Source: Usitatibacter rugosus (lineage in GTDB: Bacteria > Pseudomonadota > Gammaproteobacteria > Burkholderiales > Usitatibacteraceae). From it: DNA of 64,000 nt. The stretch is from the NCBI RefSeq assembly GCF_013003965.1, contig NZ_CP053069.1:310001-374000 (forward strand). The letters run 5' to 3'. The notes under the pieces are model-generated. The model was given only the letters and a program-made list of their open reading frames with translations, was not told the DNA's origin and did no database searches. A program made the position numbers and the translations under genes. Positions 9,551-37,234 of the stretch are shown piece by piece (the first letter of the stretch is position 1; the number at the start of each line of letters is the position of its first letter).

Positions 9551-9551
9551 G

Positions 9552-14323: not shown

Positions 14324-14343
14324 CTATGCAAATTCGTTCATAT
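14324..14343. promoter_or_regulatory. Candidate operator site A, CTATG-N10-CATAT
   Basis: CTATG, ten bases, CATAT; the inner four bases on each side (TATG and CATA) are inverted repeats. The site lies 38 bases upstream of the regulator start and 76 bases upstream of fdnG. The same spaced element recurs upstream of selA, tupB and fdsG. It is a candidate binding site for the ModE-HTH/PBP regulators. Confidence 0.6.
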
Positions 14344-14418
14344 AGGTCGTGGCGTCCGGGAGGCATACATTGGTTGCACAACTCGAACCCGACGCAGGCA
14401 CGAGGAGGCGCCTTTAAG

Positions 14419-17400
14419 ATGGACATGAACCGGAGGCAGTTTTTCAAGGCATGCACCACGGGGTTGGCAGGTTCCAGCCTCGCAATGCTGGGGTACTCGC
14501 CCCAGGCCGTGCTCGCCGAAACGCGAAGCTTCAAGCTCGCGAAAACAACGGAAACGCGCAACACCTGCCCATACTGCTCGGTAGGCTGCGGCGTCCTCAT
14601 GTACAGCCTGGGTGACAAGGCGAAGAACGTCGCCGCCGAGATCATCCATATCGAAGGCGACCCGGACCACCCGGTGAACCGCGGGACGCTGTGTCCCAAG
14701 GGAGCGGGCCTGCTCGACTTCGTGCATAGCGAGAACCGCCTCAAGTACCCGGAATACCGCGCGCCCGGCTCGGACGAGTGGAAGCGCATCTCCTGGGACG
14801 ACGCGCTGGACCGCATCGCCAAGCTGATGAAGGCGGACCGCGACGCGAACTTCGTCACGCAGACGCCCGACGGCAAGACCGTCAATCGATGGCTGACCAC
14901 GGGGATGCTCGCCGCATCGGCGTCCTCGAACGAAGCCGGCTACATCACCCACAAGGTCATCCGGACCCTCGGCACCCTCGTCTTCGACAACCAGGCACGC
15001 GTTTGACACGGCCCCACGGTGGCGAGTCTCGCCCCGACGTTCGGCCGCGGTGCAATGACGAATCACTGGGTCGACATCAAGAATGCCGATGTCGTGCTCA
15101 TCATGGGTGGCAACGCCGCTGAAGCGCACCCGTGCGGCTTCAAGTGGGTGACGGAAGCCAAGGCGCATAACAAGGCGCGCCTGGTGGTGGTGGACCCACG
15201 CTTCACGCGCTCGGCCGCGATGGCCGACTACTACGCGCCCATCCGCGTCGGGACCGACATCGCGTTCCTGGGCGGGGTGATCAACTACCTCATCGGCAAC
15301 AACAAGCTGCAGATGGAGTACGTGAAGCAGTACACCAACGCTCCGTTCCTGCTCACCGACCAGTACAAGTTCTCCGAGGGCATCTTCTCCGGCTACAACG
15401 AGGCGAAGCGCTCGTACGACCCCTCGTCGTGGGGCTACCAGAAGGACAAGGACGGCTTCGCCAGGGTCGACGAGACGCTGCAGGACCCGCTCTGCGTCTT
15501 CCAGGTGATGAAGGCGCACTACTCGCGCTACACGCCCGAGCTGGTGTCGAAGATCTGCGGCACGCCGAAGGACGCGTTCCTCAAGGTCTGCGAGTACATC
15601 GCCACCTCCGCCGGGCCCGATCGCGCCATGACGGTGATGTACGCGCTCGGCTGGACGCAGCACTCGCAGGGGTCGCAGATGATCCGCACGGCGGCGATCA
15701 TGCAGCTGCTGCTGGGCAACATCGGCATCCCCGGCGGCGGCATGAACGCGCTGCGCGGCCACAGCAACATCCAGGGCCTCACCGACCTGGGCCTGCTCAC
15801 CAACTCGCTGCCGGGCTACCTCACGCTACCGCGCGAGGCGGAGCAGGACTACGACAAGTACCTCGAGACGCGGACGTTGAAGCCCCTGCGCCCGAACCAG
15901 ATGTCCTACTGGTCGAACTATCCCAAGTTCCACGTGAGCCTGATGAAGGCGTGGTACGGGAACGCGGCCACCAAGGAGAACAACTGGGCGTACAACTTCC
16001 TGCCCAAGCTCGACAAGAACTACGACGTGCTGCAGGCGTTCGAGCTGATGGGCCAGGGCAAGATCAACGGCTACATCTGCCAGGGCTTCAACCCGCTCGC
16101 GTCGTTCCCGCACAAGGCCAAGATCAACGCGGGGCTCGCAAAGCTGAAGTTCCTGATCGTGATCGACCCGCTCGCCACGGAGACCGCGGACTTCTGGAAG
16201 AACTACGGCGTCTACAACGACGTGAAGACGGCCGAGATCAAGACCGAGGTGTTCCGGCTGCCATCGACATGCTTTGCGGAAGAGGACGGCTCGCTCACCA
16301 ACTCCGGGCGCTGGCTGCAATGGCACTGGAAGGGCGCGAATCCGCCGGGTGAGGCGCGCACCGACGTCGACATCATGGCGGAGCTCTTCCAGCGCATCAA
16401 AGCGCTGTACGTGAAGGACGGAGGCGCGTACCCGGATCCGATCCTCGCGCTCACCTGGCCGTACCGCATCGCGCGCTCGCCGTCGGCCGAAGAGCTGGCG
16501 ATGGAATACAACGGCAAGGCGATCACCGACGTGCTCGCGCCGCCGAATCCGAAGGACCCGAAAGCTCCGCAGGCGGTGCTCGCGCAAGCGGGCCAGCAGC
16601 TCGCGGGCTTTGGCCTGCTTCGCGACGACGGCAGCACGGCGGCGGGCTGCTGGATCTACACCGGCTGCTGGACGCAGGCCGGCAACCAGATGGCACGGCG
16701 CGACAACGCCGATCCGTTCGGCATCGGCCAGACGTTGAACTGGGCGTGGTCGTGGCCGGCGAACCGCCGCATCCTGTACAACCGCGCGTCCTCGGACCAG
16801 AGCGGCAAGCCCTGGAATGCCAAGCGCAAGCTCGTGTTCTGGAACGGCAAGGCGTGGGGCGGCTCGGACGTTCCCGACATGCGCCCTGATGCCGCGCCCG
16901 ACGAGCACGTGCAGCCGTTCATCATGACGGCCGAGGGTGTCGCACGGCTCTTCGCTCCGACGGGCATGGCGGAAGGTCCGCTGCCCGAGCATTACGAGCC
17001 GTTCGAGTCGCCGATGACGGTGAACCTGATGTCGCCCAACAACCCGAAGGCGTTCGCGAATCCCGCGGCGCGCGTGTTCAAGGGCGACATGGAGGCGTTC
17101 GGCAAGCCCAAGGACTTCCCGTACGCGGCGACGACCTATCGCTTGACCGAGCATTTCCACTACTGGACCAAGCATGTCGAGTCCAACGCGATCACGCAGC
17201 CGCAGCAGTTCGTCGAGATCGGCGAGGACCTCGCGAAGGAAAAGGGGATCGCGCACGGCGACAAGGTGAAGGTGCGCTCCAACCGCGGCGAGATCATCAC
17301 GGTTTGCGTGGTAACCAAGCGGATCAAGGCCCTCGACTGCAACGGGACCAAGGTCCATACGGTCGGCATTCCCAACCACTGGGGCTTCAAGGGCGTGGCG

Positions 17401-17502
17401 AAGATGGGTTACCTCGCCAACGTGCTGACGCCCTTCGTGGGGGACGCCAATACGCAGACGCCGGAATACAAGGCGTTCACCGTGAACATCGAGAAAGCGT
17501 AG
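14419..17502 (+). CDS. fdnG: Formate dehydrogenase-N alpha subunit, selenocysteine-containing, UGA read through at 15004-15006
   Basis: This 1027-residue catalytic subunit starts at ATG 14419 after AGGAGG (14403-14408). NRRQFFK is a Tat motif, so it is exported folded to the periplasm. The 4Fe-4S ligands are Cys50, Cys53, Cys57 and Cys92 (CPYCSVGC and TLCPKG). Codon 196 is TGA, in frame within [23 protein letters not shown], and is the selenocysteine ligand of the Mo/W bis-PGD centre, as in E. coli FdnG Sec196. The reading frame continues with no other stop to 17502. It passes electrons to FdnH and FdnI. The locus encodes SelA, SelB and tRNA-Sec nearby, so readthrough is expected to be functional. 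Confidence 0.97.
15004..15043 (+). promoter_or_regulatory. Bacterial SECIS element after the fdnG UGA
   Basis: The UGA codon is followed by CACGGCCCCACGG, then a hairpin with GGCG (15021-15024) paired to CGCC (15030-15033) around an AGUCU loop. The loop matches the G-U-C-U apical loop recognised by SelB in E. coli fdnG/fdhF. The placement a few bases downstream of UGA is as expected. I did not compute the fold. Confidence 0.85.
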
Positions 17503-17509
17503 GCGCCCA

Positions 17510-18430
17510 ATGTCCTCACTTCAATCGCTGGACCTGAAGCAACGCTCGGCCACGACCTCCATGCCACCCTCCATCCGGGCGACGCCGGAGGTCGCGAAGC
17601 TGATCGACATCTCGAAGTGCATCGGCTGCAAGGCCTGCCAGGTGGCGTGCGGCGAATGGAACGACATTCGCGACAAGGTCGGCACCAACGTGGGCGTGTA
17701 CGACAACCCCGCGGACCTCTCGCCCGACTCGTGGACGGTGATGCGCTTCACCGAGCGCGAGGAAGCCGGCAAGCTCGAGTGGCTGATCCGCAAGGACGGG
17801 TGCATGCATTGCGCCGACCCGGGCTGCCTCAAGGCTTGCCCATCGCCGGGTGCCATCGTGCAGTACTCGAACGGCATCGTCGATTTCATCGAGGAGCACT
17901 GTATCGGCTGCGGCTATTGCGTCACCGGCTGCCCGTTCGACGTGCCGCGCATCTCGAAGGAAGACAACAAGGCGTACAAGTGCACGCTCTGTTCGGATCG
18001 CGTGTCGGTCGGCCTCGAGCCCGCCTGCGTGAAGACGTGCCCGACGGGCGCCATCATGTTCGGCACCAAGGAGGACATGAAGGAGCAGGCGGCCGAGCGT
18101 CTCGTGGATCTCAAGGAGCGCGGCTACCAGAACGCGGGCCTCTACGATCCGCAGGGCGTGGGCGGCACGCACGTGATGTACGTGCTGCAGCACGCGAACA
18201 ACCCCGAGCTCTATGCGGGGCTGCCGGCGAATCCCACGATCAGCCCGATGGTGTCGCTGTGGAAAGGCGTGGCCAAGCCGATATCGCTGCTGGCAATGGG
18301 CGCCGTGGCGCTCTTCGGCTTCTTCCACTACGTGAGGACGGGCCCCAACGACGCCGATGGAGACACGGTTCCCGCGGAGAATCCGCCGCCCGATGCCGTT
18401 CCGCCCAAACGGGAGCGCGACCATGCATGA
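17510..18430 (+). CDS. fdnH: Formate dehydrogenase-N iron-sulfur (beta) subunit
   Basis: This 306-residue protein starts at ATG 17510, seven bases after fdnG. It carries four 4Fe-4S motifs: [11 protein letters not shown] (near 38), [13 protein letters not shown] (near 99), [11 protein letters not shown] (near 132) and the CTLCSDRV...CVKTC set (near 157). A single hydrophobic segment near residues 250-270 ([16 protein letters not shown]) anchors it to the membrane, facing the periplasm. It carries electrons from FdnG to the heme b subunit. Its stop overlaps the fdnI start by eight bases. Confidence 0.97.
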
Positions 18431-19064
18431 GCCCATCGAGACGACCGAGCGTATCGAGCGCTACGGGAAGAACGAGCGCACCAACCACTGGTTGGTGGCG
18501 ATCTGCTTCGTGCTCGCGGCGCTCTCCGGCCTCGCGTTGCTGCATCCGGCGATGTTCTGGCTCACGGGCCTCTTCGGCGGCGGGCCGTGGACGAGGATCC
18601 TCCACCCGTTCATCGGCCTCGCGATGGCGCTGGGGTTCCTGTTCCTCGCGCTGCACTTCGCCGGCGAGAACCACGTGAACGAGTCGGACAAGCAGTGGAT
18701 GCGGCAATGGCGCGACGTCGTGGACAACCGCGAGGATCGCCTGCCCGAAGTCGGCCGCTACAACGCCGGGCAGAAGGTCCTGTTCTGGGCGCTCGTGATC
18801 CTGATGCTGATCCTCGTCGTCACGGGCTTCATGTTCTGGCGCCCGTGGTTCGCGCACCTGCTGCCGATCTGGGCCGTGCGGGGAGCGACGCTGCTGCATT
18901 CCATCGCGGCGGTGCTGCTCATCATCTGCATCATCGTCCACGTCTATGCGGCGATCTGGGTGAAGGGCTCGATGCGCGCCATGATGCAGGGCTGGGTGAG
19001 CGGACGCTGGGCCCGCCGGCACCACGCGGCGTGGTACCGCCAGGTCACGAAGGATCGCTCCTAG
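18423..19064 (+). CDS. fdnI: Formate dehydrogenase-N cytochrome b556 (gamma) subunit
   Basis: This 213-residue membrane protein starts at ATG 18423, inside the fdnH end. Four hydrophobic helices are visible, near residues 20-43, 55-75, 115-140 and 150-175. The family motif R-T-N-H-W-L is near residue 20, and His in helices 2 and 4 (LHFAGENH and the [21 protein letters not shown] segment) are candidate heme ligands. It takes electrons to the quinone pool at the cytoplasmic side of the membrane. Confidence 0.95.
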
Positions 19065-19073
19065 CGGCGCTCG

Positions 19074-20057
19074 ATGTCGACGGTCCACAAGCTCCTCACG
19101 CCCGAGGAAATCGCCTCCAAGGGTGGCGCGAAGATTCCGTTCCTCCACCTGCCGGAGCGTGCGGATGCATTCGCGAGCCGTGCTCGCCGCCTGCGCTCGC
19201 TGGCACCGGGCCACGCGCTCGAGGGTTACCTCGAGTTCATGGCGCTCGTCGCCGACCAGCAGCAGGTGCGGCTGGACAACATGCCGCCGGTCGCGATCCC
19301 GCGGCCCGAGGCGCTCGATCGCAGCCACGAGCACGGCATGCCGCCGATCGACTTCTCCACGCACGCGCGGGACGTCGGCTGGTGCGATTCGCTTCGCCGC
19401 ATGCTGCGCGCGATCGCCGCGGAGACGGAGGGCACCACGCACGATGTCGTGGCGCGCCTCGAGAACAGTCCGGACGCGCTGTACGAGGCCCAGGCGAGCA
19501 AGCTGCTCGCGGGCATCACGTTCGGCCTCGACATCGCCACGGCTCCCTTGATCGGCGCCGGCCTGCAGGTCTACTTCACGCACCTCGCGCTGGCCCTGGG
19601 CCAGGACGCCATTCGCCCGATCGAGGTGCCCAGCGTGTGCCCGTGCTGCGGCAGCCGCCCCACGGCAAGCATCGCGCGTGTCGGTTCCGAGGCGATTGGC
19701 TTCCGCTTCCTCCACTGCTCGCTCTGCAGCACCGAGTGGCACATGGTTCGGGTGAAGTGCACGCACTGCGAGAGCACCAAGGGAATCTCGTATCTGTCGC
19801 TCGACGACGGAAAGTCCGAAGCCCGCAAGAGCCCCGTGCTCGCCGAGACCTGCGACGAGTGCAACCACTACCTCAAGATCTGCCACATGGACCGCGACCT
19901 CCACGTGGACCCGTGTGCCGACGATCTCGCCACGCTGGCCCTCGATCTCCTCGTCACCGAGGACGGCCGCGAGCCGTGGGGCGTGAACTACATGCTGGTC
20001 CACGGCGATCCCGACGCGCCCCCGTCCCAACCCCTCCTCGAGAAAGAGCTCCGATGA
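19074..20057 (+). CDS. fdhE: Formate dehydrogenase accessory protein FdhE
   Basis: This 327-residue cytoplasmic protein starts at ATG 19074. It has the FdhE layout: an N-terminal helical domain with P-F-L-H-L-P and a C-terminal zinc-like domain with four CxxC-type sites: CPCCGSRP, HCSLCSTEW, VKCTHCE and CDECNHYLKICHMD. FdhE assists maturation and Tat export of the respiratory formate dehydrogenase catalytic subunit. It overlaps the next gene by ATGA. Confidence 0.95.
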   Translation: MSTVHKLLTPEEIASKGGAKIPFLHLPERADAFASRARRLRSLAPGHALEGYLEFMALVADQQQVRLDNMPPVAIPRPEALDRSHEHGMPPIDFSTHARDVGWCDSLRRMLRAIAAETEGTTHDVVARLENSPDALYEAQASKLLAGITFGLDIATAPLIGAGLQVYFTHLALALGQDAIRPIEVPSVCPCCGSRPTASIARVGSEAIGFRFLHCSLCSTEWHMVRVKCTHCESTKGISYLSLDDGKSEARKSPVLAETCDECNHYLKICHMDRDLHVDPCADDLATLALDLLVTEDGREPWGVNYMLVHGDPDAPPSQPLLEKELR

Positions 20058-20362
20058 AATCCGCGCTGCTTCCCGCCGCCTTCTGCCTCGCGTTGCTCGC
20101 CGGCTGCGGCGACAAGTCCGCGACGACCTCCACGCCCACCGGTGCCGTGCCGAGCAGCAGCCCGCCGGCGGGCGCGCCTCCCGCGGTGACCGCGCCGCCG
20201 ACGAACACGAGCTCCACGCCCGCGCCGACGACCGGAAGCCAGGCACCCAACGCCGCCGCCGAATCGAAGTCGCCGCCCACCACGACGCCGGGCAACACGA
20301 AGCAGGTGCAGGAATCTGCTGCGCACGGAGCGACGCAGACGACCGAGGAAAAGAAGAAGTAG
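20054..20362 (+). CDS. Small Pro/Thr/Ser-rich lipoprotein
   Basis: This 102-residue protein starts at ATG 20054 in an ATGA overlap with fdhE. The signal has lipobox L-L-A-G-C at about residues 15-19. The mature part is low-complexity, Thr-, Pro-, Ser- and Ala-rich, ending in a Glu/Lys tail, and looks unfolded. It lies inside the formate dehydrogenase operon between fdhE and the GcvH-like gene, so it may be co-expressed. No function is assigned. Confidence 0.75.
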   Translation: MKSALLPAAFCLALLAGCGDKSATTSTPTGAVPSSSPPAGAPPAVTAPPTNTSSTPAPTTGSQAPNAAAESKSPPTTTPGNTKQVQESAAHGATQTTEEKKK

Positions 20363-20369
20363 GCGCATC

Positions 20370-20825: not shown

Positions 20826-20829
20826 GGCG

Positions 20830-20849
20830 ATATGCACACCCGCTCATAT
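20830..20849. promoter_or_regulatory. Candidate operator site B, ATATG-N10-CATAT
   Basis: ATATG, ten bases, CATAT, a perfect five-base inverted repeat, lying 38 bases upstream of selA. The spacing is identical to sites A, C and D. Its presence implies that selA-selB-selC has its own regulated promoter inside the larger cluster. Confidence 0.65.
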
Positions 20850-20886
20850 GGCCGTGGGTTCCGGTTGCTCCTAGAGTCGCTGATCC

Positions 20887-22314
20887 ATGACTTCCGTCGC
20901 GCGTGACGCGCCGTTCGCCAGCCTGCCCTCGGTCGACAAGGTGCTGGGCGAAGCGACAACCCTGTCCCTCATCGAGCGCCACGGCCGGACGTGCGTGGTG
21001 ACCGCCGTGCGCGACTGGCTGGCGGAAAAGCGTGCGGACATTGCAGCGGGGCGCCCGGCCGCGATCGACGAGGCCACGATGGCGAGCGAGCTCGCGCATC
21101 GTGTCGCGCGCCAAGTCGCGCCGCGCCTTCGCCGCGTCATCAACCTCACGGGCACCGTGTTGCACACGAACCTCGGCCGCGCGCTGATGCCCACTGAAGC
21201 AGTGCGCGCCGTTGCCGAGGTGATGGAGAGCTTCGGCAACCTCGAGTACGACATCGAGTCCGGCGGACGCGGCGATCGCGACGACCTGATCGTGCCGATC
21301 CTCGCGGAGCTGACGGGCTGCGAGTCCGCGACCATCGTGAACAACAATGCCGCGGCGGTGCTCCTCGCGTTGAACACGCTCTCGCGCGGCAAGGAGGCCG
21401 TTGTTTCCCGCGGCGAGCAGATCGAGATCGGCGGCGCCTTCCGCTTGCCGGACATCATGGCGCGCGCGGGCTGCAAGCTGCGCGAGGTCGGCACGACCAA
21501 CCGCACGCACCTCAAGGACTACGCCGAGGCGATCGGCCCGAAGACCGGGCTGGTGCTCAAGGTCCACAAGAGCAATTACGCGGTCACCGGCTTCACCGCG
21601 GAGGTGGAAGAGGCCGAACTGGGCGCGCTGTGCCGTGAACGCGGCGTGCCGTTCCTCGTGGACCTCGGCAGCGGCGCGCTCGTGGACCTCTCGCGTTGGG
21701 GACTGCCGAAGGAGCCCACCCCGCGTGAGACGCTCGCGCACGGCGCCTCCGTCGTGACCTTCAGCGGCGACAAGCTGCTGGGCGGCCCCCAGGCGGGCAT
21801 CGTCGTCGGCGACAAGGACCTCGTCGCGAAGATCAAGAAGAACCCGCTCAAGCGCGCGCTGCGCGTGAACAAGATGACGCTCGCGGCGCTGGAAGCCGTG
21901 CTCGGTCTCTATCGCGATCCCGATCGGCTTCGCGAGAAGCTCACGACGCTGCGACTGCTCTCGCGCGACACGGCCGAGATCCGTGCGCTGGCGCAGCGGC
22001 TGAAGCCCGTGTTCGAACGTGCGTTGGGCGAGGGCGTGTCGGTGAGCGTCGAGGAGTGCGCGAGCCAGATCGGCAGCGGCGCGCAGCCCGTGGAGCGCCT
22101 GGCGAGTGCGGCGATCGTGCTGCGCCGCTCGGGCCCGAAAGGAATGTCGCCGACGAAGCTCGAACGCACGCTGCGCGCACTGCCCGTGCCCGTGATCGGC
22201 CGCATCGCCGACGATGCGCTGCGGCTGGATCTTCGCTGCCTCGAGAACGAAGCGGAGCTGTGCTCACTGCTCGACGTCATTCCCGTGAAGACGGGAATCC
22301 AGCCGGGACGATAG
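20887..22314 (+). CDS. selA: L-seryl-tRNA(Sec) selenium transferase
   Basis: This 475-residue PLP enzyme starts at ATG 20887. It converts Ser-tRNA-Sec to Sec-tRNA-Sec with selenophosphate. The order matches E. coli SelA: N-terminal domain with [25 protein letters not shown], the [11 protein letters not shown] segment, and [13 protein letters not shown] with PLP Lys296. The last ten residues ([10 protein letters not shown] region) come from a dispersed ATTCCC-N8-GGGAAT repeat at 22279-22298, so the native C-terminus seems replaced or extended by the repeat. selB follows two bases after the stop. Confidence 0.97.
22279..22298. repeat. Dispersed repeat copy 2 inside the selA 3' end
   Basis: ATTCCC-N8-GGGAAT, the same core as the copies at 7694 and 30444. 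Here it is coding, making the V-I-P-V-K-T-G-I-Q part of SelA's C-terminus, and it lies 19 bases before selB starts. Confidence 0.8.
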
Positions 22315-22316
22315 CC

Positions 22317-24224
22317 ATGATCGTCGGCACGGCGGGCCACATCGACCACGGCAAGACCTCGCTCGTGAAGGCGTTGACGGGCGTGGACACGGATCGCCTC
22401 AAGGAAGAAAAGGCGCGCGGCATCTCGATCGAGCTGGGCTATGCCTACAAGCCGTTGCCCGGTGGTGCAATCCTCGGCTTCGTCGATGTGCCCGGACACG
22501 AGAAGTTCGTCGATCACATGGTGGCGGGTGCGACGGGCATCGACTTCGTGTTGCTGGTCATCGCGGCCGACGACGGCCCCATGCCGCAGACCCTCGAGCA
22601 TCTCGACATCGTGTCGCTGCTGGGCGTGCGCACGGGCGCGGTCGCCATGACGAAGGTGGATCGCGTGGATGCCACGCGCCGCGCCGAATGCGAACGCGAG
22701 ATCCGCGCGCTGCTTTCCGGAGGACCGCTCGCGGATGCACCGATCTTCGGAGTCTCGAGCGTGACGCGCGAAGGACTCGATGCGCTGCAGGCTCACCTCC
22801 AGGAAGCCGCCGCGGCGCAAGACGCCCGGCGCCCCGGCGCGGGCTTTCGGTTGGCCGTGGACCGATGCTTCACGCTCGACGGCATCGGGACCGTCGTGAC
22901 GGGGACGGTTTTTTCGGGCGCGGTGACCGTGGGCGATGAGGTCATCGTGTCGCCTTCGGGGGAGCGCACGCGCGTTCGCAGCCTGCATGCCCAGAACCGC
23001 ACGGCCACCGTGGGCCATGCGGGCCAGCGCTGCGCCCTCGCGCTGGGGGGCATCGCGAAGGAGGCGATTGCGAGAGGCGACTGGATCGTGGCGCCGCCGT
23101 TGCACCTGCCGACGGCGCGCATCGACGTGCGCCTGAGGCTTTCCGCGCGCGAGGCGAAGGCCTTCCGGCACTGGACCGCCGTTCACCTGCATCTCGGTGC
23201 CGCGCACGCGCTGGCGCGCGTAGCGCTGCTCGAAGGCGAATCGCTGGCGCCGGGGTCGGAGGCGCTCGCGCAGCTCGTCGTCGGGCAACCGATCGGCGCA
23301 TGGGCCGGCGATGCGTTCATCGTCCGCGATGCTTCGGGTGCCCGCACGCTCGGAGGCGGCGTTGTCGTCGACCCCGTCGGCCGCGAGCGTCATCGCCGGG
23401 CGCCGGAGCGCCTCGACACGCTGCGCAGGCTCGAAGCGCCCACGCCCGCCGCGCGCTTGCACGCGTTGCTGGAGGCGAGCGACACCGGTATCGATCTCGA
23501 TCAATTCCGTGCGACGCAGAACGTCGCGGGCAGCGAGCTCGAGCTCGGCCGAGACGTGATTCGCATCGAATCGGGAGGGCGCGACATCGCGATCGGCGCG
23601 GCTCCCTGGCAGAGGTTGCGGGACACGTTCGTCGAACGGCTCGCGCGCTCGCACGAGGAGCGGCCCGAGGAGCTCGGCCCGGACCTGGGCCGCGTGCGGC
23701 GCATGGCGTTCCCGCGTCATCGTTCCGCGGTGGTCGATGCGCTCGCCGCCTCGTTGCTCGAGGAGGGACGCGTCGCGCGCAGCGGCCCGTGGTGGCATCT
23801 CCCCACGCATTCGATCCGGCTCACCGAGCGCGAGGAGCAGCTCGCCCGCGCGATCCTGCCGCGGCTCGATGCCGAGGGCGTCGATCCGACATGGGTGCGC
23901 GATCACGCGAAGGCCGTCGGCGCTCCCGAGCACGAGGTTCGCGCGCTGATGCGGCGGCTGGGACGGCGCGGCGACGTCTTCGCGGTCGTGAAGGATCTCT
24001 ATTTCTCGCGCTCCGCCGTCGAGCGGCTTGCACTGGCAGCGAAGGCACTCGACGACGAGTCCGGTGCCGTGCGTGCGGCCGAGTTCCGCGACCGCATCGG
24101 CATCGGTCGCAAGCGCGCCATCCAGATCCTCGAGTTCTTCGACCGCGTGGGCTTCACGCGCCGCGCCCACGACGAGCACCGCGTGCGCGGCGACAGCCTG
24201 CTGCGGCTGGGGGAGAGTCCCTAG
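22317..24224 (+). CDS. selB: Selenocysteine-specific elongation factor
   Basis: This 635-residue GTPase starts at ATG 22317, just after the selA stop. The G domain has [10 protein letters not shown] (residues 7-16), DVPGH, and the TKVD motif. Domains II and III follow (about 175-330). The C-terminal half (about 380-635) contains repeated winged-helix-like stretches ([44 protein letters not shown]) that bind SECIS hairpins. It delivers Sec-tRNA-Sec to UGA codons such as the one at 15004. It is coupled with selA, with tRNA-Sec 15 bases downstream. Confidence 0.97.
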
Positions 24225-24238
24225 CGGCGCCAACAAAC

Positions 24239-24334
24239 GGAAGGGATCCGCTCCCGGTGGGGCGGCCGGCCTTCAAAGCCGGTGGGGGACGCCAGGCGTT
24301 CCCGGGTGGGTTCGACTCCCATTCCCTTCCGCCA
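24239..24334 (+). tRNA. selC: tRNA-Sec (anticodon TCA)
   Basis: The 96-base sequence folds as selC. An eight-base acceptor stem (GGAAGGGA with TCCCTTCC), discriminator G and encoded CCA (24332-24334) are seen. The anticodon loop is CTTCAAA with TCA at 24273-24275 and a six-pair stem. A long extra arm follows, and a T-arm with GGTTCGACTCC. The eight-pair acceptor and anticodon UCA distinguish it from tRNA-Ser and tRNA-Trp. It ends the selAB run, so the three Sec-decoding genes are adjacent. Confidence 0.97.
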
Positions 24335-24354
24335 GCCTCTTCCGAACGGCGTGG

Positions 24355-24767: not shown

Positions 24768-25546
24768 AAACCGTGCGAGGCGAGGACTGATTGTCCCGCC
24801 GGTGAAAGAATGAACGCGGCGAAGCGCTCGCCGCTCGGCGAGACTCCGTTCATCACCGCGAGGCCGTACTCCGCCCCGACCGCGAGCGTCTCCGGAAGTG
24901 CGACGATTTCGAGCGTGGGCTCCTCGCGCTTCGCGAGCGCTGCGCCGGTGCAATACGTGAGGAAGATATCGACCGAGCCGTTGGCGACCAGCACGCCGTA
25001 CGCGCTGCGATCCTTAGGCGGCGGCGGTGAGGTCGGACCTCCCACGAGCTGCAGCGCCTTCTTCGAGAGCGACTCGAACGCGCCGGGCTTGAGCTTCTCC
25101 GCGCGCTCGAACACCTGCCACGCGTAGTCGCCCGACGGATCGGCCTTCGGCGTCGAGGTGGCCAGCTTCACGCCGGGCGAGAGCATCTTCTCGAGGAGGT
25201 TGTCCGTCGTCGCTCCGACCTTCGGAGATACGAGCGCACAGAGCTTGTTGCGGGCGAAGGCTCGAACGAGCTGCGCCTTGCCCGCATCGACGAGCGCCTT
25301 CGGATGCTCCATGTTCGCGGAGGCGAAGAGGTCCGCCGCTTCACCCTTCGCGAGGCGATCGCGCAGGATCCCCGACGGGCCGAACTCGAACATCACGTCG
25401 CTGCCGCCTGCGATGCGGAAGACAGTAGCCACCTCGGTGAGCGCGGCCTTCAGGCTTCCGGCCGCGTAGACCTTTGGTGCCGTGGACTGCGCCATGGCGG
25501 GCAGGGCGATCGCGAGGGCGAGGATGCGAAGCGCGAGCCTGATCAC
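24755..25546 (-). CDS. ModA-like oxyanion substrate-binding protein, second SBP in the tup operon
   Basis: This 263-residue protein starts at GTG 25546, overlapping the tupA stop (GTGA). A signal peptide (RILALAIALPAMAQS) is followed by AAGSLKAALTEVATVF, the ModA-like first motif, then E-F-G-P-S-G-I-L, LFASANMEHPKAL and a C-terminal lobe with AFILSPAGQSVLASHGF. It resembles SBP_bac_11 molybdate-binding proteins. It has no dedicated permease; the nearest ones are TupB and ModB. A second binding protein in one importer operon implies alternative ligands or a sensor role (inference). Confidence 0.82.
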   Translation of the reverse strand: MIRLALRILALAIALPAMAQSTAPKVYAAGSLKAALTEVATVFRIAGGSDVMFEFGPSGILRDRLAKGEAADLFASANMEHPKALVDAGKAQLVRAFARNKLCALVSPKVGATTDNLLEKMLSPGVKLATSTPKADPSGDYAWQVFERAEKLKPGAFESLSKKALQLVGGPTSPPPPKDRSAYGVLVANGSVDIFLTYCTGAALAKREEPTLEIVALPETLAVGAEYGLAVMNGVSPSGERFAAFILSPAGQSVLASHGFSAP

Positions 25547-26370
25547 GGCTTGTAGTTGGGGAAGAAGAGCTGCTCGCCGTCGATCTTGTACGCGGCGATC
25601 GCCGACTGGCCCGCGGGCGAGATCACCCAGTCGATGAACTTCTGGCCCATGTCCTTCTTCACGTGCGCGTGCTTCGCCGGATTCACGAGCATCACGCCGT
25701 ACTGGTTGAAGAGCTTCACGTCGCCCTCGACCAGGATCACGAGGTCTCCGCGGTTCTTGAACGAGAGCCACGTGCCGCGGTCGGTGAGCGCGTAGGCGTT
25801 GAGGCCCGAGGCGGTGTTGAGCGTGGGGCCCATGCCCGAGCCGGTTTCGCGATACCACGGGCCCTTCGGCGGATCGATGCCGGCGGCCTTCCAGTAGCGG
25901 AGCTCGGCGGCGTGCGTGCCGCTCTTGTCGGCGCGCGAGGCGAACGGCGCCTGGGCGGCGGCGATCTTCTTCAGCGCGGCCTCCACGTCCTTGCCCTTCA
26001 CGCCGGCGGGATCCGCCTTCGGGCCCACGATGATGAAGTCGTTGTACATCACCTCGAAGCGCTTCACGCCGAAGCCCTCGGCGAGGAATTTCTCCTCGGC
26101 CACCTTGTCGTGGACGAAGACCACGTCCGCATCGCCCTTGCGGCCCATGTCGAGTGCCTGGCCAGTTCCGACGGCGACCACGCGCACGTCGAAGCCGAGC
26201 GCCTTCTTCGCTTCCGGCAGCAGGTGCTTGAAGAGGCCCGACTGCTCCGTGGAGGTCGTCGAGGCAACGGTGATGAAGTCCTGCGCCTGCGCGGAGAGCG
26301 CGAAGAGCAGCGCCGCGGCGAACGAAGCCGCGAGCCGGGAGGGGCTCAGGCGGGAGAGGAAACGGACCAT
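25543..26370 (-). CDS. tupA: Tungstate ABC transporter substrate-binding protein
   Basis: This 275-residue periplasmic protein starts at ATG 26370, overlapping the tupC end by 25 bases. A signal peptide precedes the TupA motif VASTTSTEQSGLF with T-T-S-T at 38-41 and the D-V-V-F-V-H-D stretch. The T-T-T-S motif is a mark of tungstate binding proteins in contrast to ModA's A-A-A-S-L. It delivers tungstate (WO4) to the TupB-TupC pair, supplying metal for the formate dehydrogenases next to it. Confidence 0.93.
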   Translation of the reverse strand: MVRFLSRLSPSRLAASFAAALLFALSAQAQDFITVASTTSTEQSGLFKHLLPEAKKALGFDVRVVAVGTGQALDMGRKGDADVVFVHDKVAEEKFLAEGFGVKRFEVMYNDFIIVGPKADPAGVKGKDVEAALKKIAAAQAPFASRADKSGTHAAELRYWKAAGIDPPKGPWYRETGSGMGPTLNTASGLNAYALTDRGTWLSFKNRGDLVILVEGDVKLFNQYGVMLVNPAKHAHVKKDMGQKFIDWVISPAGQSAIAAYKIDGEQLFFPNYKP

Positions 26371-27077
26371 GGCAATTCTCCTTCGAGGAATGCGGCCGCT
26401 TCCGGCGACCGCGGGTTGTTGAAGAACGTCGTGGCCGCGGCGCGTTCGACCAGCCGGCCGCGGTGGAGGAAGAGGATCTCGCCCGCGACGCGCTTCGCGA
26501 AGCCGAGGTTGTGCGTGGTGAAGACGAGCGCGGTACCGCCGCGGCCGATCTCGCTCATGGTGCGTTCGACCTCGGCGCTGGCGGAAGGATCGAGGCTGGC
26601 CGTGGGCTCATCGAGGAACAGCACGCGCGGTTCGAGGGCCGCGGCTCGAGCGAGGGCGAGCCGTTGCTGCTCGCCGCCGGAGAGTACGCGCGCCTGACGG
26701 TCGGCGAGGTGGGCCAGGCCCACGCGTTCAAGCGCGGCACGGGCGCGGATGTTGCGTTCCGATCCGTCCACGCCGTTCACGGCGAGTGCATATTCGACGT
26801 TCGCGATCGCCGAGCGCCGCAGCAGCACCGGCCGCTGGAAGACCATCGCCTGCGCGGACGGCCTTGCCGTCGACCCGGCCCATGTCACCGCGCCCGAGGT
26901 CGGCGCGATGAGGCCATGGAGGACGCGAAGCAGCACGCTCTTGCCGGCGCCGTTTGCTCCGAGGATCACGGCGGGAGCGGTGCCGTCGAGCGTGAAGCTC
27001 ACGTCGTCCACCGCCGTGTGCCCGTCGAACCGGACGGTGATCGCGCGAGCCTCGAGCGGGAGCATCGCGTCAGCCAT
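26346..27077 (-). CDS. tupC: Tungstate ABC transporter ATP-binding protein
   Basis: This 243-residue ATPase starts at ATG 27077 and overlaps the tupB end by eight bases. The Walker A is GANGAGKS (residues 40-47), the signature [10 protein letters not shown], the Walker B VLFLDEPTASLDPS and the switch His is in F-T-T-H-N-L. The short form without TOBE domains fits TupC rather than ModC. It powers tungstate import by TupB. Confidence 0.93.
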   Translation of the reverse strand: MADAMLPLEARAITVRFDGHTAVDDVSFTLDGTAPAVILGANGAGKSVLLRVLHGLIAPTSGAVTWAGSTARPSAQAMVFQRPVLLRRSAIANVEYALAVNGVDGSERNIRARAALERVGLAHLADRQARVLSGGEQQRLALARAAALEPRVLFLDEPTASLDPSASAEVERTMSEIGRGGTALVFTTHNLGFAKRVAGEILFLHRGRLVERAAATTFFNNPRSPEAAAFLEGELPWSVSSPA

Positions 27078-27774
27078 ATCGCTTGGCGCTCCATTCGCGG
27101 ATCGCGTAGGCGATGGCGTTCAACCCGAGCACGATCAGGAGCAGCACGATGCCCAGGCCGAGCGCGAGGGGAAGGTCGCCCTTGCTCGTCTCCAGCGCGA
27201 TCGCGGTCGTCATCACGCGCGTGACGCCGTCGATGTTGCCGCCGACGATCATCACGGCTCCGACCTCGCTCGCCGCGCGCCCGAAGCCGAGCAGCACGAC
27301 GGTGAACAGCCCGTAGCGAAGGTCCCAGAGCATCGTGGGAATGGCGCGCAGCGGCGTCACGCCGAGCGAGCGGAGCTGTTCCTCGTACTCGCGCCATCCG
27401 TCCTCGACGAATTGGCGCGCGAGTGCGGCCACGATCGGCAGCACGAGCAGCGCCTGCGCGATCACGATGGCCTTCGGAGTGAAGAGGATGCCGAGCGAGC
27501 CGAACGGGCCGGCTCGCGAGAGCAGGAGGTAGACCACGAGGCCCACCACCACGGAGGGCAGGGCGAGCAGCGCATTGAGAATCACGATCGCGGCACGGCG
27601 GCCGGGGAAACGCTCGACGGCGACCAGGGCGCCCAGGGGCAATCCGAACAGGCAGGCGAGCGCGGCGGCAGCGAGGCTCACCTCCAGCGAGAGGATCACC
27701 ACTTGCCACAACGAGGAATCACCACCGGTGATGAGGCGAAGCGCGAGGCCGAGGCTCGCGCCGAGGTCGTTCAT
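27070..27774 (-). CDS. tupB: Tungstate ABC transporter permease
   Basis: This 234-residue membrane protein starts at ATG 27774; the longer reading from 27801 is less likely because site C lies upstream. Five to six hydrophobic helices are seen. The EAA-like coupling loop E-V-G-A-V-M-I-V-G-G-N and the LGFGRAASE segment match TupB/ModB. It is the first gene of the tup operon, 36 bases after candidate operator site C. Confidence 0.93.
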   Translation of the reverse strand: MNDLGASLGLALRLITGGDSSLWQVVILSLEVSLAAAALACLFGLPLGALVAVERFPGRRAAIVILNALLALPSVVVGLVVYLLLSRAGPFGSLGILFTPKAIVIAQALLVLPIVAALARQFVEDGWREYEEQLRSLGVTPLRAIPTMLWDLRYGLFTVVLLGFGRAASEVGAVMIVGGNIDGVTRVMTTAIALETSKGDLPLALGLGIVLLLIVLGLNAIAYAIREWSAKRYG

Positions 27775-27809
27775 GTCCGCGATTCTGCCCAAGACCCGCA
27801 CCCGGACAG

Positions 27810-27829
27810 ATATGAACTCGTGTTCCTAT
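27810..27829. promoter_or_regulatory. Candidate operator site C, ATATG-N10-CCTAT
   Basis: On the plus strand ATATG, ten bases, CCTAT, one mismatch from the CATAT half of sites B and D. It lies 36 bases upstream of tupB (minus strand) and 18 bases beyond the modC end. This ties tungstate transport to the same proposed regulon. Confidence 0.5.
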
Positions 27830-27847
27830 GGTGCCGCGAAGGGCTAT

Positions 27848-28936
27848 TCAGGCGAAACCGACGCTGCGCCGGTCGATGGAGACGGCCTTCACCATCGCGA
27901 AGACGGCCAAGCCCGGTGCGAGGCCCAACTCCTGCACGGCCTTGCGCGTGACGCGGGCAGTGAGCGTCTCGCGGCCGATGCGCAGCTGCACGTCGACAAT
28001 CGCTCCGAACTCGTCACCGATGGTCTCCACGACGGCGGGGAGGATGTTCTGCACGCTCACGCCTTCCGGCCGCCGAAGCGCGATCGAAACGTCGCGGGCG
28101 CGGATGCGGGCGCGTACCGGCTCTCCCGGCAGCGCATCGAGGTTGGGGACGATGAGCTGGCCGCCGTCGAAGACGAGCGTCGTGAGGCCATACGACTCGT
28201 CGAGGCTCGCGACACGCGACTCGATGACCGAGCCCGCTTCGAAGCGCCCGAGGTGCGGCGAGAGATCCTTCCGCCCGAGCACTTCCGCGGCCGGCCCGCT
28301 CGTGACGACGCGGCCCTCGGACATCACGACGAGGTGGTCCGCGAGGCGGGTGACTTCCTCGAGCGCGTGGCTCACGTAGACGATCGGGAGGCGCAGCTCG
28401 TCGCGCAACAGCTCGACGTACGCGAGGATCTCGGCCTTGCGCGGCGCATCGAGCGACGCAAGGGGTTCATCCATCAGCAGCACGTGCGGGCTCGCAAGCA
28501 GCGCGCGGCCGATCGCGACGCGCTGCTTCTCGCCGCCGGAGAGCGTGTTGGGCCGCCGCTCCTGCAACGCCTCGAGCCCGAGCAGTGCCGTGACGCGCGC
28601 GCGATCGACGAACCGCTCCGTGACGAGCGTGAGGCGCTCGCCGTAGTCCAGGTTCGCGCGCACCGAGAGGTGCGGGAACAACAGGCCTTCCTGGAACACG
28701 TAACCCACGCGGCGCGACTCGGGTGCGAGGTCGATGCCCCGCTGCGAATCGAAGAGCACGCGGCCCGCGACGCAGATGCGACCGCGCGCGGGCTTCACCA
28801 GTCCCGCGATCGCATTCACGAGCGTGCTCTTGCCCGAGCCCGAGCGTCCGAACAGTGCGACGATCGGTGCGTCGGCCGCGAACGCCGCTTCGAGGTGGAA
28901 ATCCTCGCGATCGATGGCGACGTCGACTTCAACCAT
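27848..28936 (-). CDS. modC: Molybdate ABC transporter ATP-binding protein with TOBE domain
   Basis: This 362-residue protein starts at ATG 28936; the longer reading from 28951 overlaps modB. The Walker A is GRSGSGKST (about residues 31-39), the signature LSGGEKQR, the Walker B VLLMDEPLASLD and the switch H is in VSHALEE. The C-terminal quarter (about 290-362) is a TOBE-like domain (IRARDVSIALRRPEGVSVQNILPAVV), which binds molybdate and regulates the importer. It overlaps the modB stop by eight bases. Confidence 0.94.
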   Translation of the reverse strand: MVEVDVAIDREDFHLEAAFAADAPIVALFGRSGSGKSTLVNAIAGLVKPARGRICVAGRVLFDSQRGIDLAPESRRVGYVFQEGLLFPHLSVRANLDYGERLTLVTERFVDRARVTALLGLEALQERRPNTLSGGEKQRVAIGRALLASPHVLLMDEPLASLDAPRKAEILAYVELLRDELRLPIVYVSHALEEVTRLADHLVVMSEGRVVTSGPAAEVLGRKDLSPHLGRFEAGSVIESRVASLDESYGLTTLVFDGGQLIVPNLDALPGEPVRARIRARDVSIALRRPEGVSVQNILPAVVETIGDEFGAIVDVQLRIGRETLTARVTRKAVQELGLAPGLAVFAMVKAVSIDRRSVGFA

Positions 28937-29615
28937 GCGCGGACTTTCCACGGCTGCGGCGAACCAGCCATTCGCTGGCGGCGAGCGCGGCGAGCGAGAG
29001 GATCACCGAGAGGACGGAGAGCTTGAGCGCCTGCGCATCGGCACCAGGCACCTGCGTGTACGTGTAGATCGCGAGCGGCAGGGTCTGCGTCTCGCCGGGA
29101 ATGTTGGAGACGAACGTGATCGTCGCGCCGAATTCCCCGAGACAGCGCGCGAAGCCGAGGAGCGCACCGGTGGCGAGACCGGGAACCGAGAGCGGCAGCG
29201 TGATCGTGAAGAACACGCGCCACGGCCCGGCGCCCAGCGTGCGCGCGGCGCGCTCGAGGCGCGGGTCGATCGATTCGAATGCGAGGCGCAGCGCCCGCAC
29301 GAGGAGCGGGAAGCCCATGATCGCCGCGGCGAGTGCGGCGCCCGTCCACTTGAACGCGAACACGATGCCGAGAGGCTCGAGGAGGCCGCCGATGGGCCCG
29401 TTGCGCCCGAAGAGCACGAGCAGCGCAAAGCCCACGACCACCGGCGGCAGCACCAGTGGGAGATGCACGAAGGCATCGAAGAGCGTCTTGCCCGGGAAGT
29501 CGTAACGCGCGAGGACGTAGGCGACGGCGATGCCGAGCGGCAGGCTACCCGCGACGCCCCAGAAGGCGACCTGCAGCGAGAGCGCGACGACGCGCCATTC
29601 GTCGGCGCTCAGCAA
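28929..29615 (-). CDS. modB: Molybdate ABC transporter permease
   Basis: This 228-residue membrane protein starts at TTG 29615, four bases after the modA stop. Five hydrophobic helices are visible. The coupling loop LGFARCLGEFGATITF carries the E-A-A-like G-E-F-G-A motif seen in ModB. It overlaps modC by eight bases and forms the channel for molybdate. Confidence 0.93.
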   Translation of the reverse strand: MLSADEWRVVALSLQVAFWGVAGSLPLGIAVAYVLARYDFPGKTLFDAFVHLPLVLPPVVVGFALLVLFGRNGPIGGLLEPLGIVFAFKWTGAALAAAIMGFPLLVRALRLAFESIDPRLERAARTLGAGPWRVFFTITLPLSVPGLATGALLGFARCLGEFGATITFVSNIPGETQTLPLAIYTYTQVPGADAQALKLSVLSVILSLAALAASEWLVRRSRGKSAHG

Positions 29616-29618
29616 GGC

Positions 29619-30374
29619 CTAGTTGCGCAGGAAGCCGTAGCGCTCCCAGGTGGCGCGCGCCTCGGGGGCCGCGAGCCACCTGGCGAATTCCTGCGCCGCG
29701 CCTGCCTTCGCTGTCTTCAGCATCACGAGAGGATAGACGATCGGCGGATGCGTGCCCGCGGGGAAGGTGTCGACGATGCGCACGCCCTTGTCCGCCATCG
29801 CGTCGGTGCGATAGACGATGCCGAAGGGCGCCTCGCCGCGCGAGACGAGGGCGAGCGCCGAGCGCACGTTCTCGGCGGCCGCCACCTTCGGCGCCACGGA
29901 GTCCCATACGCCGAGCGCCGTGAGCGACGCCTTGCCGTACTTGCCGGCGGGCACCGCGTCGGGGTTGGCCATCGCGATCCGGCCGTTGCCGATCGCCATG
30001 GCGAGGCCGAAGCCCGGCGCGATCTTGAGCGGGGTGGTGGAGGCGGCGGGCGCGATGAGGACGAGCTCGTTGCGCAGCAGGTCCACGCGCGAGCCCGGCA
30101 CGGTGAGCTGCTTCTGCTCGACGTAGTCGATCCAGTCGGTGTCCGCCGAGATGAAGAGCGCCGCGGGCGCTCCGGCCTCGATCTGCTTCGCGAGCGCGTT
30201 GCTGCCCGCGTACGAGATCGCGGCCTTGTGGCCTTTCGCGGCCTCGAAGGCCTTGGCCTGGGCATCGAGCGCTTCCTTGAGGCTCGCGGCGGCGAAGACG
30301 GTGAAGTCTTCGGCCCAAGCGGCGGGCAGGAGGAAGGAGAGGGTGAGGGCGAGAAGGATTCGGGCGGTCTTCAT
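29619..30374 (-). CDS. modA: Molybdate ABC transporter substrate-binding protein
   Basis: This 251-residue protein starts at ATG 30374 and has a clear signal peptide (ILLALTLSFLLPAAWA). The ModA first motif FAAASLKEALDA (about 27-38), G-S-N-A-L-A-K-Q, and ALFISADTDWIDY are all present, as is the C-terminal APEARATWERYGF. It captures molybdate and delivers it to ModB. A ModE-type operator lies directly upstream of its start codon. Confidence 0.95.
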   Translation of the reverse strand: MKTARILLALTLSFLLPAAWAEDFTVFAAASLKEALDAQAKAFEAAKGHKAAISYAGSNALAKQIEAGAPAALFISADTDWIDYVEQKQLTVPGSRVDLLRNELVLIAPAASTTPLKIAPGFGLAMAIGNGRIAMANPDAVPAGKYGKASLTALGVWDSVAPKVAAAENVRSALALVSRGEAPFGIVYRTDAMADKGVRIVDTFPAGTHPPIVYPLVMLKTAKAGAAQEFARWLAAPEARATWERYGFLRN

Positions 30375-30377
30375 GTC

Positions 30378-30401
30378 CGTAATATACAGCGAGATATAAC
30401 G
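30378..30401 (-). promoter_or_regulatory. ModE-type operator upstream of modA
   Basis: Read on the minus strand the site begins CGTTATAT and ends TATATTACG, similar to the E. coli ModE operator (CGTTATAT ... ATAACG type). It lies 4 to 27 bases upstream of the modA start, so bound ModE would block transcription or translation start. The modE gene is just upstream. The match is good but not perfect. Confidence 0.75.
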
Positions 30402-30415
30402 ACCTCCAAGACGTC

Positions 30416-30467
30416 GCCCCCGCGAAGGCGGGGGCCCAGCTGGATTCCCGCCTTCGCGGGAATGACG
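30416..30467. repeat. Compound dispersed repeat: GCCCCC hairpin plus ATTCCC-N8-GGGAAT copy 3
   Basis: Between modE and modA, a hairpin with GCCCCC/GGGGGC arms (30416-30435) is followed by an ATTCCC-N8-GGGAAT core (30444-30463) and GACGG. This is a common betaproteobacterial repeat pair. It lies between the two genes and could terminate or stabilise the modE transcript. Confidence 0.8.
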
Positions 30468-30468
30468 G

Positions 30469-30816
30469 CTACTTCAGGAGGTCGGCGAAGCGCTCGAGCT
30501 CGGGATCGAGGGCGCGGTCGACGGCGCGGCCCATGGCGGCGAAGCGTTCGAGGACCTGGCGGCCGAAGTCGGTGACCACGGCGCCACCACCGCCCGAGCC
30601 GCCGGTCGCCGATGCGACGACGGGCTCGCGGAAGCAGCGGTTCATCGTGTCCACGAGCAGCCAGGCGCGGCGGTAGGACATGCCGAGCCGCTTGGCGGAA
30701 GCGGAGATGGAGCCGGTGGTGGAGATGGCCTGCAGCAGCTCCGCCTTGCCGGGGCCGATCGCGATCTCGGCCCCGTACATCACGCGCAGCTTGGTAGGGC
30801 CGCGCGCGTGGCGCAT
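30469..30816 (-). CDS. modE: ModE-like single-domain transcriptional regulator (HTH only)
   Basis: This 115-residue protein starts at ATG 30816, which overlaps the grxD stop by one base. It has the ModE winged helix: I-S-T-T-G-S-I-S-A-S-A-K-R-L-G-M-S-Y-R-R-A-W-L-L-V-D-T-M-N-R-C-F, then VVTDFGRQVLERF. It lacks the C-terminal TOBE molybdate-binding domain of E. coli ModE, so molybdate response may need a partner such as ModC. It likely represses modABC through the site at 30378-30401. Confidence 0.88.
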   Translation of the reverse strand: MRHARGPTKLRVMYGAEIAIGPGKAELLQAISTTGSISASAKRLGMSYRRAWLLVDTMNRCFREPVVASATGGSGGGGAVVTDFGRQVLERFAAMGRAVDRALDPELERFADLLK

Positions 30817-31133
30817 TACTTCTGGGTGCCGGTGAGGAGCGTCTGCAGCTCGCCGCTCTGGTACATCTCTTTCATGATGTCGGAGCCGCCGACGAACTCG
30901 CCGTTCACGTAGAGCTGCGGGATGGTCGGCCAGTTGGCGAATTCCTTGATGCCCTGGCGGATCTCCGGGTCTTGCAGCACGTCGACCGTGAAGATTTCCT
31001 GCGCGCCCGAGGCTTTGAGCAGCTGCACGGCGTTGGCCGAGAAGCCGCACTGCGGGAACTGGGGCGAGCCCTTCATGTAGAGCACGACGGGGTGGCCGGT
31101 GACCTGCGATTTGATGGTGTCCTGGACGCTCAT
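30816..31133 (-). CDS. grxD: Monothiol glutaredoxin (Grx4/GrxD type)
   Basis: This 105-residue cytoplasmic protein starts at ATG 31133 with AGGAG close upstream. The monothiol active site C-G-F-S has Cys29, followed by W-P-T-I-P-Q-L-Y and GGSDIM motifs of the GrxD family. GrxD proteins carry 2Fe-2S clusters and help iron-sulfur assembly. Its stop overlaps the modE start by one base, which may link iron-sulfur supply to the metal-cofactor module. Confidence 0.95.
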   Translation of the reverse strand: MSVQDTIKSQVTGHPVVLYMKGSPQFPQCGFSANAVQLLKASGAQEIFTVDVLQDPEIRQGIKEFANWPTIPQLYVNGEFVGGSDIMKEMYQSGELQTLLTGTQK

Positions 31134-31162
31134 GGCTTCAATCTCCTTGGCTAACCGATATT

Positions 31163-32299
31163 TTAGCGCCGACCCGGCAATTCAAGGGCCTGCGCCATGG
31201 GGATGACGACGCCGGGGTCGTCGAGCGTGTAGCCCGGCTCCCCGCCGACCGCTTCCCGGAAGGCATCCCCTCCCAGCAGCGAGACCATCTCGCGCCCGGC
31301 GGGCAAATCCAGCGTGCGCTTGTCGCAGGCGAGCATGTAACGCTCGACCACCAGCGGAATGAAGTCGAGCTTGAAGTGGCGCGCGGCCGGCTCGACGGCC
31401 ATGCCTACGTCGGCGATGTGGCTCGCCACGAAGGCGGCCACGGCGGCGTGAGTGAACTCCCCGGTTTCCGCATAGCCCGGAATGTGGCGCGGGTCGATAC
31501 GCGCCGCGGCCAGCATCCCGTCCAGCAGCACGCGCGTGCCGGAACCGCGTTGACGGTTCACGAAGCGTATGCCCGGCTTCGCAAGGTCGGCGACGCCACG
31601 GATGCCCAGCGGGTTGCCCTTGGCAACCACGAGACCCTGCGTGCGCTTCACGAGCTTGATGACCACTTGCTGCCGCGGCTTCACTACCGGCTCGTAGTGG
31701 GCGCGCAGCACGGCCGCCAGCTCACCTTCGGGCATGTGGAAGCCCGCGAACTCGCAGGCGCCGCGGCCGAGCGAGCGGAGCGCCTCGACGCTGCCCATGT
31801 ACTGCAGGTCCACGTCGGCGTGGCCGTGCTCGCGCATCACGCGCGGGATCTTCTCCACCGCGTAGCCATGGCTCGCGTGGATGCGCAGCAGCTCCTGCGC
31901 CGGCTTCAAATGCCGATTGATCTCGAGGTTCAGCTCCGAGGCGATGTTCTCGAGGAGCGGGAAAAGGCTCGCATCGCTGCGCTGCTCCGCCCACAGCAGC
32001 TTTTCACCCAGCGGTGCCAGCGACGCTCCCTTGCCGCGCGCCATGATCACCAGCGGGCTGCCGAAGAACTCCGACCACTTCGCGAGCAGGTCCCAGGCAT
32101 GGCGATAGGAAAGGCCGATCCGCTTGGTGGCGAGCGTGAGCTTGCCGGTTTCGTGGATGGCGCCCAGGAGATCGAACAGGCGCGGGTCCACGCGCTCGCC
32201 GGCGGTGGTGGTGAAAGTCCACGAGGGACGGATGACGATCTTGTCCAAGTGGCAAAAAATCTCATATTGCGGTCTCCGTGTCCATACCCTAGTTTCCAT
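31163..32299 (-). CDS. ModE-type HTH / PBP-like fusion regulator (copy 2), divergent from fdsG
   Basis: The ATG start is at 32299 (378 aa), but homology with the copy at 13198-14286 begins around residue 18, so a TTG start at 32248 (361 aa) is equally plausible. The winged helix GKLTLATKRIGLSYRHAWDL and the GSPLVIMARGKGASLAPLG segment are followed by a PBP-like domain with D-L-Q-Y-M-G-S and G-I-R-F-V-N-R-Q-R-G-S-G-T-R. It is divergently placed to the fds operon. In Cupriavidus a regulator called FdsR is linked to fdsGBACD, but I cannot confirm that this is the same gene family. Confidence 0.88.
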   Translation of the reverse strand: METRVWTRRPQYEIFCHLDKIVIRPSWTFTTTAGERVDPRLFDLLGAIHETGKLTLATKRIGLSYRHAWDLLAKWSEFFGSPLVIMARGKGASLAPLGEKLLWAEQRSDASLFPLLENIASELNLEINRHLKPAQELLRIHASHGYAVEKIPRVMREHGHADVDLQYMGSVEALRSLGRGACEFAGFHMPEGELAAVLRAHYEPVVKPRQQVVIKLVKRTQGLVVAKGNPLGIRGVADLAKPGIRFVNRQRGSGTRVLLDGMLAAARIDPRHIPGYAETGEFTHAAVAAFVASHIADVGMAVEPAARHFKLDFIPLVVERYMLACDKRTLDLPAGREMVSLLGGDAFREAVGGEPGYTLDDPGVVIPMAQALELPGRR

Positions 32300-32325
32300 A
32301 GGGAAACGTGCTGAATAAGCGTCGC

Positions 32326-32345
32326 ATATGCGACTTTTCGCATAT
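32326..32345. promoter_or_regulatory. Candidate operator site D, ATATG-N10-CATAT
   Basis: ATATG, ten bases, CATAT; each half is part of a CATATG hexamer, so the site has six-base symmetry. It lies 26 bases upstream of the fdsG start and 27 bases beyond the regulator ATG at 32299. It is the strongest match of the four proposed sites. Confidence 0.65.
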
Positions 32346-37230: not shown

Positions 37231-37234
37231 GGCC

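Follow-up and report, generated by a model that had tools for sequence, protein, structure and literature searches.

The window analysed here, a 64-kb stretch of Usitatibacter rugosus (contig NZ_CP053069.1, positions 310,001 to 374,000), carries a selenoprotein formate dehydrogenase (FDH) operon (fdn), the genes of selenocysteine (Sec) synthesis (sel), tup and mod uptake genes, an NAD-linked FDH operon (fds) and two paralogous regulator genes, regA and regD, whose products join a helix-turn-helix (HTH) domain to a PBP_like domain (Table 1). A spaced inverted repeat, ATATG-N10-CATAT (the dyad), stands before fdnG, selA, tupB and fdsG (sites A to D). A first-pass annotation made from the letters of the window had reported these four copies and proposed that they form a regulon of the two regulators. 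All four are present, and its gene names hold: fdnG has an in-frame UGA Sec codon 196 (15004-15006) and a Sec insertion sequence (SECIS) at 15001-15059, and SelA, a TupB-like permease and FdsBA are likewise recognisable. We find that the HTH-PBP_like regulator family that includes RegA and RegD very probably uses the dyad as its operator. Comparison with related genomes suggests that a selenocysteine island has acquired a conserved formate/tungsten operator.

Table 1 Genes and dyad sites in the window.
Feature	Position	Strand	Description
regA	13198..14286	-	HTH-PBP_like regulator; pocket motif ASHD of tup-linked members
Site A	14324..14343		Dyad, 1 mismatch; between regA and fdnG; inside the block missing in G003 and G004
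fdnGHI-fdhE	14419..20057	+	Selenoprotein FDH operon
Site B	20830..20849		Exact dyad; 37 bp before selA; same fdn-sel block as site A
selA, selB, tRNA-Sec	20887..24334	+	selA by Pfam; selB by position and homologues
tRNA-Sec (selC)	24239-24334	+	ARAGORN and Rfam
tupA, tupC, tupB	25543..27801	-	TupA and TupB models matched below curated cut-offs; TupB-like permease
Site C	27810..27829		Dyad, 1 mismatch; before tupBCA (minus strand)
modC, modB, modA and ModE-type HTH protein	27848..31050	-	modC, modA and HTH by NCBIfam; modB by position and homologues
ModE-type HTH protein gene	30469-31050	-	NCBIfam
regD	31163..32299	-	HTH-PBP_like regulator; pocket motif ASHG of fds-linked members
Possible degenerate second site	32248..32267		3 mismatches; 78 bp from site D
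Site D	32326..32345		Exact dyad; between regD and fdsG
fdsGBACD	32371..38286	+	fdsB and fdsA by Pfam; fdsG, fdsC and fdsD from their position and from homologues in relatives

With at most one mismatch, the dyad occurs in the window at these four sites only, while shuffled versions gave a mean of 0.10 and a largest count of 1, none of 100 reaching four. Allowing two mismatches returned the same four sites against a shuffle mean of 2.00, with 12 of 100 shuffles reaching four; the two-mismatch version alone is not significant in the window, and the strength of the observation thus lies in the quality of the matches. A spacer of 10 gives four matches with at most one mismatch, and the remaining spacers from 0 to 19 give two when summed. 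The complete genome, a single contig of 4,563,145 bp, contains eight places with at most one mismatch, compared with four for the reversed control, and both exact copies and four of the eight places fall within one 18-kb stretch of the window.

The sites had been placed 26–76 bp from the start codons, a range that essentially stands for fdnG (75 bp from the site edge), selA (37 bp) and fdsG (25 bp) but not for tupB, which begins 8 bp from site C if the annotated GTG at 27801 is used. Alignments with most tupB homologues begin at about residue 10, and the true tupB start may sit further inside the gene. The divergent regulator starts lie 37 bp (regA) and 26 bp (regD) from the site edges; homologues of regD align from about residue 17-18, and its real start may be a TTG near 32248. 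A promoter and terminator scan of the gap holding site D returned neither.

Homologues of regD were found in 90 of 300 genomes sampled from the order. Three of the 104 regulator homologues did not have 400 bp upstream, leaving 101 to be scored (one more was omitted from the column counts on account of its flank), and the 400 bp upstream of these hold an exact dyad in 32 cases, a dyad with at most one mismatch in 57 and one with at most two in 75. With at most one mismatch, none of the 29 alternative orderings of the half-site letters reached more than 3 of the 101 homologues, and no other spacer reached more than 15. Counted by genus, the dyad is present at regulator-family promoters in 32 of 53 genera. 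The pooled sites prefer C beside the half-site G, giving the fuller consensus ATATGC-N8-GCATAT. Many copies inside coding regions, which the first-pass annotation had named as grounds for doubt, were not seen: among fetched loci of at least 60% GC, window excluded, the target promoters (71 kb) contain 31 exact and 46 one-mismatch sites, and the remaining 1.19 Mb contain 0 and 4.

Many relatives carry a second palindrome 75–80 bp away, with a clear mode at this distance, and the degenerate match 78 bp from site D possibly corresponds to such a pair, its resemblance being weak on its own. Helical phasing of the paired sites was considered and rejected, as a period of 10–10.5 bp is unsupported once values of 74–81 are removed. 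The arrangement extends to another class, where Halomonas sp. PA16-9 has both fds and the regulator together with a pair of sites spaced 77 bp from each other. In Diaphorobacter sp. HDW4B, a one-mismatch site precedes a tupA-like gene and an exact site precedes another FDH operon, and in Aquabacterium olei an exact site occupies the gap between a regulator and a divergent FdhF/YdeP-type gene.

The dyad also follows the presence of the regulator at fds and tup promoters. We scored 30 of the best fdsB places (lower down, the list also holds NuoF-like matches) and the best 30 tupB places of 82 genomes. The dyad is found at 19 of 25 fdsG promoters in regulator-bearing genomes (other spacers 0–5 of 25) and at none of five in genomes without the regulator; one oversized slice without a site (L293) was scored as a miss. 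At tupB promoters it is found in 13 of 20 regulator-bearing genomes and at first in two of ten without the regulator. These two exceptions (G128 and G233) have a diverged regulator beside tupB, with 35–37% identity, leaving none of eight; among the eight, L241 matches the PBP part only, and the match in L252 is short and weak (E 6e-4) and lies where the locus ends. Combined, none of 13 fds or tup promoters (five fds and eight tup; a small sample) carries the dyad in genomes without a recognisable regulator. Because the same palindrome stands beside one regulator family in many related bacteria, it is very probably the binding site of that family, and these results strongly support the earlier proposal that it serves RegA and RegD as a regulatory site.

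The presence of the sites in close relatives, which the first-pass annotation had expected, extends to two of the four. Among the congeners, G003 and G005 keep site C with one mismatch and G004 keeps it with two, and G003 retains regD with an exact site upstream, as an orphan regulator without fds beside prmC-prfA-hemA-like genes. In G004 the regD-fds block (window 31170-38280) is missing and its flanks are joined. Sites A and B belong to an 11.2-kb fdn-sel block (14309-25546: fdnGHI, fdhE, a gcvH-like gene, selA, selB and tRNA-Sec) that is missing at this place in G003 and G004, site A beginning 15 bp inside it. In G004 the regions equivalent to window 4857-14308 and 25547-30401 are neighbours separated by 17 bp, with regA directly behind tupA. 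No fdnG match was found in five congeners (three of them 80–87% complete), and even the closest relatives of selA in the order as sampled share only 62% identity with it. Since C and D recur in congeners and A and B lie in a block that congeners lack, C and D are taken as inherited and A and B as having arrived together with the island or later. A comparison with two genomes does not prove that the block was inserted here and not lost in the congeners; the position of regA directly behind tupA in G004 favours insertion.

Several results weigh against so broad an operator function. Within 400 bp, 44 of the 101 homologues have no site with at most one mismatch and 26 have none with at most two; the three named homologues L009-L011 carry no site, and neither does regA of G003 or of G004. 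We examined 71 selA loci of 87 places in 86 genomes, and 69 of the 70 others were informative (at least 300 bp upstream, which L230 did not offer): none of these 69 has a site within 600 bp, although at E 1e-40 the regulator is present for 32 of them and lacking for 37. Likewise, none of 12 other fdnG loci has a site with at most one mismatch within 450 bp, three having a two-mismatch match. The idea that Sec genes were ancestrally under this control is therefore rejected. The raw pattern is, moreover, frequent in some genomes without a regulator match, such as G006, with 41 scattered places against 7 for the reversed control. Because many other genomes also exceed this control, it understates the background and raw genome-wide counts in relatives are uninformative; we dropped them as evidence.

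The absence of A and B from the other selA and fdnG loci also invites the explanation that C and D are operators, whereas A and B arose by chance or are relics and serve no function in the selenoprotein block. We consider this improbable: site B is exact, both sites lie in promoter gaps, only 0.10 such sites are expected by chance in 64 kb, the other selA loci (619 kb) hold no exact copy and a single one-mismatch copy, and the Diaphorobacter FDH operon likewise carries an exact site. Binding of the dyad by the ModE-type HTH protein of the cluster, as a molybdate box, is less probable still. That protein is encoded in the same cluster and has a related HTH (SYRRAW versus SYRHAW in the regulators), but the site tracks the HTH-PBP regulator gene itself, tup promoters without that regulator are without the dyad, and most fetched site-bearing loci are without a modE homologue nearby (modE elsewhere in those genomes was not searched for).

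How the two paralogues share the sites is less clear-cut. RegA and RegD are 42% identical and fall in different parts of a tree of 96 regulators; eight of the 104 were omitted from the tree and from the residue counts for an early stop. In this set 41 homologues are divergent to fds and 27 to tup, and the clustering of these links on the tree is strong, with 9 changes for the fds link compared with 31.1 after shuffling and 6 compared with 23.6 for the tup link. At residue 145, where the first helix of the ligand domain begins, RegD and 41 of 41 fds-linked rows have G, while RegA and 27 of 27 tup-linked rows have D. If rows are instead assigned by the genes present at the locus, RegD of G003 is the one exception, having G at a locus with tup and without fds. 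The pattern represents only two changes on the tree, and an independent-pairs test found one pair, so that residue 145 is only a lead as a ligand determinant. Given this divergence, RegD could act on site D alone and RegA on A, B and C with no cross-regulation, which we think rather unlikely because the recognition helix (SYRHAW) is identical in both and fds- and tup-linked members share one dyad. The identical helix means that RegA and RegD probably read the same operator, and together with residue 145 it suggests different ligands on one operator. We tentatively consider it possible that RegD (ASHG), as a formate-type sensor, and RegA (ASHD), as a tungstate/molybdate-type sensor, read one operator, so that the Sec machinery, the Sec-FDH, the NAD-FDH and tungstate uptake would depend on substrate and metal together, the selenocysteine island having joined the circuit by carrying an operator at each of its two promoters.

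Taken as a whole, the explanation that we judge likely is that the palindrome is the operator of the regulator family, with C and D inherited and A and B bringing in fdn and sel. It draws on sequence, conservation, co-occurrence and synteny, from which we infer binding, dimers, ligands, the direction of control and the joint action of the paralogues. The regulators would be one-component proteins that combine a ModE/LysR-type HTH and a linker helix with a TupA/ModA-like ligand-binding domain. Standing before the regulator's own gene, usually in a gap shared with divergent fdsGBACD or tupBCA, the family operator would confer autoregulation. One dimer would bind each palindrome, and palindromes paired at 75–80 bp suggest that a pair of dimers bridges the divergent promoters. 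Formate, tungstate or molybdate, as the ligand, would either relieve largely repressive control, which fits the location of the sites near start codons, or convert it to activation. Sites A and B, in the selenoprotein-FDH island between tupA and regA, would make fdn, sel and the displaced regA part of the circuit, and both regulators may act on all four sites and coordinate the four functions.

The 'ModE-HTH' label of the first-pass annotation fits the DNA-binding domain, which is of ModE type, but the whole protein, as modelled, resembles a LysR-type regulator. ModE itself has a molbindin domain; the C-terminal part of RegA and RegD is instead PBP_like (PF12727, residues 154-342 of RegD), with no TOBE (molbindin) domain in either. 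For the structure model (mean predicted local distance difference test score 74.8, with 54–65 over part of the linker), the LysR-type regulators BenM, CbnR and OxyR lead the Foldseek list, and the HTH, linker helix and two-lobed effector domain of that type are recovered by the model, Foldseek and VIA-align. The corresponding Pfam matches fall below cut-off (HTH_1 at 20.7 and 23 bits versus 26.6; LysR_substrate at 21.9 versus 28 in RegD). The LysR-type box is T-N11-A, in contrast to the palindrome with an even centre observed here. The ligand domain resembles the oxyanion-binding proteins TupA and ModA, but its scores against phosphate-binding domains and LysR effector domains are similar, and TupA and ModA differ from RegA and RegD, which carry a DNA-binding domain. 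TunR is a tungstate-responsive regulator of sulfate reducers that would likewise control tungstate uptake; in the open-access library searched, no paper on it was found.

A 1999 paper on FdsR reportedly carries 'Dual control' in its title, as given in a reference list. FdsR is a regulator paired with fdsGBACD, as is RegD, whose gene diverges from fdsG across the gap that holds the operator; RegD is a candidate orthologue of FdsR. The FdsR promoter system of Cupriavidus necator (Ralstonia eutropha) is described as a formate-responsive, formate-inducible promoter with a Km of 130 µM (PMC7057948), and the accessible parts of the FdsR literature show no link to tungstate uptake or Sec genes. Nor do the accessible parts of the open-access literature (including PMC11879842, PMC8808070, PMC13197769, PMC11540253 and PMC6147048) describe this operator; subscription papers, including the 1999 FdsR paper, are outside this scope.

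The dyad offers a directly testable candidate operator for a common, little-studied regulator family (90 of 300 genomes of the order). This family would link the oxidation of formate with the supply of tungsten, two processes that matter for converting formate and CO2, and the window presents a clear case of a selenoprotein island apparently wired into a resident circuit, with Sec synthesis under apparent substrate or metal control.

Further dyads lie near other FDH-like genes, at 11663-11682 of locus L318 (exact) and at 15452 of L158, 3449 of L160 and 13125 of L149 (one mismatch each), and the regulon may thus extend to other types of FDH. Two loci of one genus (L085 and L087, genus g12) have a tandem regulator pair beside fds and up to four dyads with at most one mismatch in one gap. 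Within the fdn-sel block, a glycine-cleavage H-protein-like (gcvH-like) gene (PF01597, 20370-20825, plus strand) lies between fdhE and selA, which adjoin each other in relatives with the full operon. Behind tRNA-Sec there is a small DsrE/DsrF-like gene (24355-24729), homologues of which follow selB in some relatives.

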